Position numbers and translations under genes: made by a program. A stretch of 64,000 bases of DNA from Fimbriimonadaceae bacterium. GTDB lineage: Bacteria; Armatimonadota; Fimbriimonadia; Fimbriimonadales; Fimbriimonadaceae. A model generated the notes under the pieces. The model was not told the DNA's origin. It worked only from the letters and a program-made list of their open reading frames with translations, and made no database searches. The stretch is from positions 1,458,605 to 1,522,604 of the forward strand of contig JAHBTE010000001.1 in assembly GCA_019638675.1 (NCBI GenBank), in the 5' to 3' direction. This document shows, one piece after another, positions 28,861 through 31,436 of the stretch (its first letter is position 1; each line of letters begins with the position of its first letter).

Positions 28861-29997
28861 TTAATCTGCTGGAGCTAGTAAAAGCGTGACTTCACTGCAG
28901 AAATGTTGACCAGTTTGTGTGAGATAGAGACGGTCGTTATCTAATTTGATCCAGCTCCGCGAAATGGATTTTTCCAATCCCTGAGTGTCTAGATTAAGGC
29001 CAGTGGTTGGTAACCCTTCGTTTAGTCGCAGACCGAGCATGAGCTTTTCAAAGTTTTGGTCGCTCTCAGTAAGGAATTCACTTTCGCAGTGGAGGGATTT
29101 GTTGTCTTCTATTGCGGTCGAATATCCTTCTGGGTGCTTGAGATTTGTGTAGCGGTATTTGCCTTGAGCAGTGTAGTAGCAACCAACGGCTCCCGGGCCA
29201 TAAGCGAGATACTCCTCGTTGCGCCAATAAGCGAGGTTGTGGCGGGATTCGTTCCCTGGCAATGCGAAGTTCGAGATTTCGTACTGACTTAATCCGGCAG
29301 ATTCCGTGACTTCGATTGCTTTTGAATACATCTGCGTTTGCGCTTCATCGTCCGGCAGATTGAGCATGCCTTTTGTATGATGGCGATAGAACCGAGTGTT
29401 TGGCTCGATGGTCAAGCAGTAGAGGCTGAGGTGTTGTGTGCCAAGCGAGAGCGCAGTTTCGAGATTGTTTTGCCACGCTCGCGGTGATTGTCCGGGCAAG
29501 GCGAACATGAGATCAATGTTGATACTCGTGAACCCTGCGGCTTTAGCTTTGGCGACGGCTTGTGCGATATGAGTCGGTGCGTGGACTCTGCCAAGGCGAA
29601 CCAAATCGTCGGCCTGGAAGCTCTGTGCACCCAGGGACAAGCGGTTGAAGCCAGCTTTACGCATCGCTTCGAATTTAGGAAAATCTATCGTGCCGGGGTT
29701 GGCTTCGGATGTGATTTCGCAGTCCTCAGTTGGGGGATGGGCTTCGATGACTGCTTCCAGGATTGCGACAAGTTGTTCGGTTGGGAGATAGGTTGGGGTG
29801 CCGCCTCCGATAAAGATGGTTTTGGCCGGGCGTCCTCGGTTGGTGGAGTTTGTGATTTCAGCGATGGTTGCCGCAGTGGTGCGCGCCATGATGTCGCCCT
29901 GCATGGCATAGGAATTAAAATCGCAGTATCCACACTTCGAAGGGCAAAACGGAGTGTGGATGTAAACGGCAACGGGATCGTGATTGATCGGTTCTAT
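28861..29997 (-). CDS. hemW: HemW-like radical SAM protein; non-standard start
   Basis: HemW is a heme-chaperone-type member of the coproporphyrinogen III oxidase-like radical SAM family. The 4Fe-4S motif CPSKCGYC is preceded by VAVYIHTPF, as in HemW. Then come TIFIGGGTPTYL, SLGAQSF, and a C-terminal domain containing QYEISNFALPG and SRHNLAYWRNEEYLAYGPGA. The part after Met at 29904 is 347 residues, but the iron-sulfur motif lies upstream of it. In that frame, between TAA (30003-30001) and the motif, there is no ATG, GTG or TTG: only ATA (29997) and ATC (29988) could serve. The start given here is therefore tentative. Confidence 0.85.
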   Translation of the reverse strand: MEPINHDPVAVYIHTPFCPSKCGYCDFNSYAMQGDIMARTTAATIAEITNSTNRGRPAKTIFIGGGTPTYLPTEQLVAILEAVIEAHPPTEDCEITSEANPGTIDFPKFEAMRKAGFNRLSLGAQSFQADDLVRLGRVHAPTHIAQAVAKAKAAGFTSINIDLMFALPGQSPRAWQNNLETALSLGTQHLSLYCLTIEPNTRFYRHHTKGMLNLPDDEAQTQMYSKAIEVTESAGLSQYEISNFALPGNESRHNLAYWRNEEYLAYGPGAVGCYYTAQGKYRYTNLKHPEGYSTAIEDNKSLHCESEFLTESDQNFEKLMLGLRLNEGLPTTGLNLDTQGLEKSISRSWIKLDNDRLYLTQTGQHFCSEVTLLLAPAD

Positions 29998-30021: not shown

Positions 30022-30192
30022 TCAGTCGCGCGATGCTAAGGCCGCGATCAGCCCTAATACGATTCCTGCAATCACCGGCACCGCCGGCTGATGACACGAA
30101 ATTCATCCAGAGTTGGAGGCTTTCATCAATAGGTGGTAGCCGAACCCGGCGGCACCTCCGATGATCGCAGATGAGATTGCTTTGATGAGCAT
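30022..30192 (-). CDS. Small two-helix membrane protein ORF with internal in-frame UGA (candidate selenoprotein)
   Basis: The frame starts at ATG 30192-30190, is interrupted by TGA at 30105-30103, and stays open to the TGA at 30024-30022, giving 56 positions in all. Before the UGA is a helix rich in small residues (IKAISSAIIGGAAGFGYHLL). After it come ISCHQP and a second helix (VPVIAGIVLGLIAALA). The UGA is followed two residues later by Cys, giving UxxC. By memory the layout resembles small DUF6132-type proteins with a CxxGxC loop between two helices, and the UGA falls at the second Cys position. Downstream a SECIS-like hairpin is present. No Shine-Dalgarno box is visible. A nonsense pseudogene is the main alternative. 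Confidence 0.5.
30071..30092 (-). promoter_or_regulatory. SECIS-like hairpin 3' of the internal UGA
   Basis: On the minus strand the 22 bases fold as ATCA/TGAT, a bulged G, and CCGGC/GCCGG around the apical loop GGT. The loop starts 20 bases after the UGA codon. Published rules for bacterial SECIS elements (loop about 16-37 bases after UGA, G in the first two loop bases, short upper stem) are met. Whether it binds SelB is unknown. Confidence 0.4.
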
Positions 30193-30263: not shown

Positions 30264-31436
30264 TTACTTATCAAGTAACGCAGCAATCCCGGGAAGCACT
30301 TGCCCTTCGAGGAATTCCAGCGATGCGCCGCCACCGGTGGAGACGTGGGTGACCTGGTATGCGAGTCCAAACTTTTCGATTGCAGCCGCAGAATCGCCGC
30401 CACCTACGATACTTGTGCCTTTGCACTCAGCCAATCCCAGAGCGACTTGCTTGGTGCCGTTGGCAAACGCATCAAATTCGAAAACTCCCATTGGCCCGTT
30501 CCACAAAACGGTTTGGGCATTTGCGGCAATTTCTCGGAATCGTTTTGCTGATTCCGGGCCAATATCTAATCCCATTTGATCGGCAGGAATGGCGTTTGAA
30601 GGCACTACCTTAGCCGGAGCATCAGCTTTGAATTCGGGAGCCACCACGGTATCGGTCGGTAACACTATTTTGGGATTTGCTAGCAAGGTTTTGCAGTAGT
30701 CCAGAGATTCTTCGTCGAGCAAAGACTTACCGATCTCGTTACCCTCTGCCTTGAGGAAGGTGTATGCCATGCCTCCGCCAATAATGAGTTGGTCAACTTT
30801 TGGTAAAAGCGATTCAATGACCTGAATTTTATCTTTGACTTTTGCGCCGCCCATGATTGCTACGAACGGGCGTTTGGGGTCTTCCACTGCATTGCCAAGG
30901 AAGTTAATCTCTTTCTCGATGAGGAATCCCGCAACGGCGGGAAGGTGGTGCGCGATTCCTTCGGTGGAAGCGTGTGCGCGATGAGCGGTACCAAACGCAT
31001 CATTTACGTAAATGTCTGCCAGGCTGGCGAGTTCCTTGGCAAAAGCAGGGTCGTTGGCTTCTTCTTCGTTGTGGTAACGCACGTTTTGGAGGAGAATCAC
31101 TTGTCCAGGCTGAACCGCTTTAGCGGCGGCTTGGGCGGCGGGGCCGATGCAGTCGGAGGTCAGCACAACTGGTTGTCCCAAGAGCTCAGTGAGTCTTTGC
31201 GCGACAGGCGCAAGCGAGAATTCTGGATCGGGCTTGCCTTTTGGTCGGCCCATGTGAGAAGCCAGGATGAGTGCCGCCCCTTGATCTAAGCAGTAATGAA
31301 TGGTAGGAAGTGACGACGTGATACGGATGTCGTCGGTGATTTGCCCGTTTTCCATCGGAACATTGAAATCGCATCGGATGAATACCTTTTTGCCGGAAAG
31401 GTCAATTTCGCGGACGGTCTTTTTATTGAGGGGCAT
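30264..31436 (-). CDS. pgk: Phosphoglycerate kinase
   Basis: Glycolytic enzyme that makes ATP and 3-phosphoglycerate from 1,3-bisphosphoglycerate. The 390-residue protein has the N-terminal signature [13 protein letters not shown], the substrate-binding [48 protein letters not shown] and the nucleotide-binding end [13 protein letters not shown]. Nothing is truncated. The next genes on the same strand are the UGA-containing small ORF and hemW. Confidence 0.97.

Follow-up and report, generated by a model that had tools for sequence, protein, structure and literature searches.

A 56-residue gene of a Fimbriimonadaceae bacterium (Armatimonadota) that seems broken by a stop codon reads, by comparison with its relatives, as a selenoprotein gene, its in-frame UGA being replaced by a Cys codon in nearly every relative that lacks selA. 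The gene lies in a stretch of 64,000 nucleotides (assembly GCA_019638675.1, contig JAHBTE010000001.1, positions 1,458,605–1,522,604), the whole of which is called the window here. It is highly likely, judging from the sequence comparisons described below, that the open reading frame (ORF) encodes a genuine selenoprotein of a DUF6132-related family; the hairpin following its UGA would act as the SECIS. This adds a selenoprotein family across the phylum Armatimonadota, whose members ordinary gene calling would miss or shorten, and places selenocysteine (Sec) in a predicted membrane protein of very small size whose partner Cys switched sides many times. It also offers a first functional handle on the unstudied DUF6132 family: the loop Cys of DUF6132 is probably reactive and not structural, since it was worth replacing by Sec.

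The ORF reads MLIKAISSAIIGGAAGFGYHLLMKASNSG-U-ISCHQPAVPVIAGIVLGLIAALASRD-stop, with 29 codons opening with the ATG, the internal TGA decoded as Sec, 26 further codons in the same frame and a final TGA at 30024–30022. An earlier reading of the letters made without database searches (the sequence-only reading) had proposed this ORF, together with a UxxC motif; its coordinates and frame proved exact, and U30 and Cys33 are present in the conceptual translation. The protein is predicted to be a two-helix membrane protein with Sec in the loop, the AlphaFold model showing helices at residues 2–25 and 37–54 with U30 between them (pLDDT 70, pTM 0.34, moderate confidence). No solved structure was found among the relatives, the CrcB matches, at E about 2, being due to chance, and no phage match was found. 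MyrrCad and DUF2613, which matched the single protein below threshold and over the second helix only (Pfam/NCBIfam), were set aside as low-complexity hits, and kinship with the YeeE/TsuA thiosulfate transporter, seen for one member only at E = 0.02, was not supported. In many Fimbriimonadia loci a short GCGTAGAA- or GCGTANNNT-like motif is located ~10–20 bases 5′ of the start; these loci are without a visible Shine-Dalgarno sequence, and their transcripts may be leaderless, with the motif as the −10 element of the promoter. The copy in the window does not show it clearly.

Table 1. Location of the selenoprotein gene, its elements and the flanking genes in the window
Feature	Position	Strand	Basis
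Gene of the 56-residue selenoprotein, with U as residue 30	30022..30192	-	ORF reading, UGA/Cys homologues and Sec machinery
Sec codon UGA (TGA)	30103..30105	-	89 homologues, 68 with UGA and 21 with Cys
Cys33 codon (UGU), partner thiol of the UxxC motif	30094..30096	-	Partner Cys on a single side only
SECIS hairpin; core CCGGC 30087-30083, loop GGU 30082-30080, GCCGG 30079-30075	30063..30100	-	Folding and conservation
hemW, adjacent on the downstream side; start probably AUA at 29997-29995	28861..29997	-	TIGR00539, 314 bits (cut-off 205)
Phosphoglycerate kinase gene, upstream	30264..31436	-	Context only

Conservation of the UGA and its exchange with cysteine

A protein search of 151 related genomes yielded dozens of homologues, each carrying a single in-frame TGA, that span many genera and another family of the same order. 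Widening the set to the whole phylum Armatimonadota with a profile search gave the 89 homologues whose residue at this position, UGA or Cys and nothing else, is counted in Table 1; the sequence-only reading had suggested looking for just these two codons. The UGA and the frame on both sides of it are conserved down to about 30–45% protein identity, as is the hairpin within Fimbriimonadia. When the window gene is compared with that of the nearest named relative, Fimbriimonadaceae bacterium ACE_ARM8, 13 of the 15 nucleotide differences are found at third codon positions, with seven silent codons and one changed before the UGA, and six silent and one changed after it. A Fimbriimonadaceae-type copy with UGA, 68% identical, was also found in JADZEW010000008.1 (L100), labelled Methanoregulaceae archaeon SJ84, an assembly that is probably mislabelled.

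The choice between the two codons follows selA, which is present in 66 of the 68 genomes with the UGA form and absent from 20 of the 21 with the Cys form (p = 1e-16, kinship ignored). The exceptions are two genomes with a UGA form and no detected selA (G042, 74% complete; G142, split into 220 contigs but 98% complete) and one with a Cys form and selA (G055, 77% complete). Both forms coexist in at least five genera (g4, g6, g20, g22 and g131), the Cys form each time in a genome without selA. On a weakly resolved tree, built with the motif columns left out, at least 12 Sec/Cys changes were counted. Only four independent pairs are well supported, all four concordant with selA; these are too few for formal significance alone, and the case is built on the combined evidence.

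The source genome itself, of 2.85 Mb, contains selA, selB, selD and a tRNA-Sec with anticodon UCA (identified by ARAGORN), the complete set that the sequence-only reading had proposed to look for. Its selD has an in-frame UGA of its own within the motif CAGUASK (G000:C1:651775-652689, locus L010), and a candidate SECIS, GGCGGAG-GUU-CUCCGCC, whose loop of three nucleotides starts with G. The formate dehydrogenase-like genes found in this genome are devoid of UGA, and Sec-FdhA is therefore probably not what maintains the Sec machinery here.

The hairpin downstream of the UGA

The SECIS-like hairpin announced by the sequence-only reading is present as described (AUCA.CCGGC/GGU/GCCGG.UGAU), with its 3-nt apical loop 20 nt 3′ of the UGA, and it agrees with the published rules for bacterial SECIS elements (PMC13188914). 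The 46-nt segment containing it folds with a minimum free energy (MFE) of −18.7 kcal/mol, which corresponds to z = −2.5 relative to dinucleotide-shuffled sequences; no Rfam match was found at the hairpin. Its core, CCGGC-GGU-GCCGG, is almost invariant in the UGA forms of Fimbriimonadia, silent codon positions included. Across the 37 gap-free forms of this kind, codons +6 to +9 are CCG for Pro (37/37), GCG for Ala (35/35), GTG for Val (27/30) and CCG for Pro (37/37), and all four glycine codons are used elsewhere in the same genes. The second Pro codon is free in the Cys forms (CCC 7, CCG 6, CCT 2), a contrast with the UGA forms that gives a hypergeometric p = 1.4e-6, kinship ignored. The silent-site constraint on the hairpin is thus kept with the UGA and lost in the Cys forms. 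Pairing is preserved in 99.5% of the cells, with a double change from C-G to U-A in two rows, and three loci (L060, L045 and L081) place a hairpin of different letters at about the same position. The peptide PAVPV is partly a shadow of the SECIS, because the hairpin constrains these codons. Under plain MFE folding, 50 of 67 UGA forms conform to the main loop rules versus 7 of 21 Cys forms; outside Fimbriimonadia, where the hairpin varies, this simple folding of the UGA forms found no common SECIS.

These observations bear on two other readings of the internal TGA. The sequence-only reading had allowed for a pseudogene, in which a nonsense mutation would have split an ordinary two-helix protein; TGA is indeed a stop in the standard reading, and no Shine-Dalgarno sequence is visible ahead of the window ORF. 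The same codon, however, occurs in 68 homologues of many genera, is always TGA where it is not Cys, and is followed by a frame in which silent changes dominate. With both the UGA and the downstream frame conserved in this way, a pseudogene is excluded for all practical purposes. The UGA could instead be read through, or decoded as an amino acid other than Sec, the evidence on residue 30 being drawn from sequences. We consider this very improbable, as genomes with the UGA form have selA and those with the Cys form lack it, with the few exceptions named above; the hairpin, too, is retained only alongside the UGA, and the Sec machinery is complete. The selenoprotein assignment, by contrast, is backed by that machinery, by the UGA and Cys homologues, by the SECIS rules and by the silent-site conservation.

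Partner cysteine, neighbouring genes and possible function

A second Cys accompanies position 30 on one side only, both in Sec and in Cys forms. Of the 89 homologues, 22 have it upstream (−3 to −6), 64 have it downstream (+3 or +4) and three have no such Cys; none has one on both sides. On the weakly resolved tree it switched sides about 14 times. A thiol that resolves a selenenylsulfide or disulfide would be expected to show this pattern, which could equally come from two metal ligands.

The neighbouring genes differ between families (hemW in Fimbriimonadia, thioredoxin in other families, or a heavy-metal-associated (HMA) domain), which leaves the pathway unsettled. hemW is the next gene downstream in 33 of the 60 loci searched (23 Sec and 10 Cys forms), many loci showing a four-base stop/start overlap with it (ATGA, GTGA or TTGA); it is not adjacent to the deep members in the loci examined. 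In the window, hemW contains no ATG, GTG or TTG between the in-frame stop ahead of it and its radical-SAM Cys motif. The hemW start of a relative, ATG GAA CCC GTC GCC, aligns with an AUA in the window, where ACE_ARM8 has the same letters as the window; the gene thus seems to start at this rare codon, or its true start is not visible. A thioredoxin gene is located directly upstream in five loci of one family (f8). In another locus (L147, G139) the Cys-form domain is continued in the same frame, with no stop, by a thioredoxin domain that is preceded by an internal Met, and a second (L083, G221), read by eye, apparently does likewise; either arrangement represents a fusion or two overlapping products. 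In Riemerella, an HMA-domain gene precedes the DUF6132 gene. A link with phosphoglycerate kinase was dropped, this gene being upstream in six loci only.

The function we somewhat favour is a membrane selenol/thiol redox relay. The UGA is very probably decoded as Sec by the SelB and tRNA-Sec of the genome, with the downstream hairpin serving as the SECIS. Sec30 would act as a reactive selenolate in the loop between the helices, pairing reversibly as a selenenylsulfide with its one partner Cys (here Cys33). The protein would thereby exchange electrons with a substrate on the membrane side and with a reductant of the thioredoxin type, presumably thioredoxin itself. A link to heme delivery is only inferred.

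The thioredoxin neighbours favour such a relay, while hemW and the HMA domain keep a heme or metal role in play. A genuine selenoprotein might use Sec and the partner Cys to ligate Cu(I), another soft metal, or heme for HemW clients, with no redox cycling. Small two-Cys membrane proteins that carry metals exist, and both the frequent position of hemW and the gene order in Riemerella would suit a carrier of this type; the thioredoxin genes adjoining or in frame with members of other families, and the separation of hemW from the deep members, speak against it, and we regard it as possible but rather unlikely. The stop/start overlaps could also suggest that the chief role of the ORF is to sense selenium as a leader gating hemW translation. 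This is quite improbable, since other families conserve the protein with no hemW beside it, the Cys forms keep the arrangement, and 24 bases separate the two genes in the window. Only marginally less speculative is a combination in which the Sec protein would be a selenium-dependent membrane redox switch acting on HemW or its client, the overlapping hemW start coupling HemW output to Sec decoding. The redox relay remains the reading that we prefer.

Relation to DUF6132 and to known selenoproteins

The sequence-only reading had pointed to small DUF6132-type proteins, with CxxGxC and then PITSNP between two helices. This lead held as to relatedness and as to the alignment of the UGA with the second loop Cys, but not as to membership, the window protein giving no match at the curated DUF6132 (PF19628) cut-off of 23.2 bits. 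Among its near homologues, seven of 60 match DUF6132 weakly (best E 0.0011). The Fimbriimonadia alignment matches a deeper Armatimonadota alignment (A4) with an hhalign probability of 98.6% and E = 5e-16, and 20 of the 25 rows of A4 in turn hit DUF6132 with E values no higher than 0.1 (best 1.2e-7); one that was checked reached 31.7 bits, over the cut-off. Deep members of the type of L159 read CAGGGUPMTSNP, and Sec is therefore taken to stand in for the later of the two cysteines in the DUF6132 motif. Being below the cut-off on its own, the window protein is termed DUF6132-related.

A May 2026 review table lists 119 prokaryotic selenoprotein families and names neither DUF6132 nor a comparable two-helix family (PMC13188914), and the June 2026 NCBIfam release holds no model for the family. 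In the open literature, beyond which a report could exist unseen, no paper on Armatimonadota selenoproteins was found, the sole co-mention being a sheep rumen study, and text matches to DUF6132 were limited to a 2011 paper on DUF6 transporters.

Three known systems can be compared with the window protein. DUF6132 shares with the family of the window protein the small, predicted two-helix architecture, the glycine-rich first helix and a loop with a Cys motif and Pro. In the annotated DUF6132 on a Riemerella plasmid, which reads GCSTGTCAITSKP, the second Cys aligns with the Sec of the window protein; the annotated DUF6132 examined has Cys, not Sec. The window loop, ASNSGU-ISCHQPAVP, departs from the DUF6132 pattern of CxxxxC followed by [PA]-x-T-S-x-P, in that the first motif Cys is absent, the partner Cys is at +3 and PAVPV stands instead of TSNP. 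SelD of the same genome resembles the window gene in its in-frame UGA and in its candidate SECIS with a 3-nt loop and initial G, but is a soluble enzyme, a selenophosphate synthetase, of unrelated sequence. Finally, the UxxC/CxxU thioredoxin-like selenoproteins (PMC13188914) have, as the window family does, a Sec near a Cys, replaceable by Cys, and a SECIS right after the UGA; the window family differs from them in having no thioredoxin fold, two predicted membrane helices in 56 residues, and a partner Cys that may be on either side.
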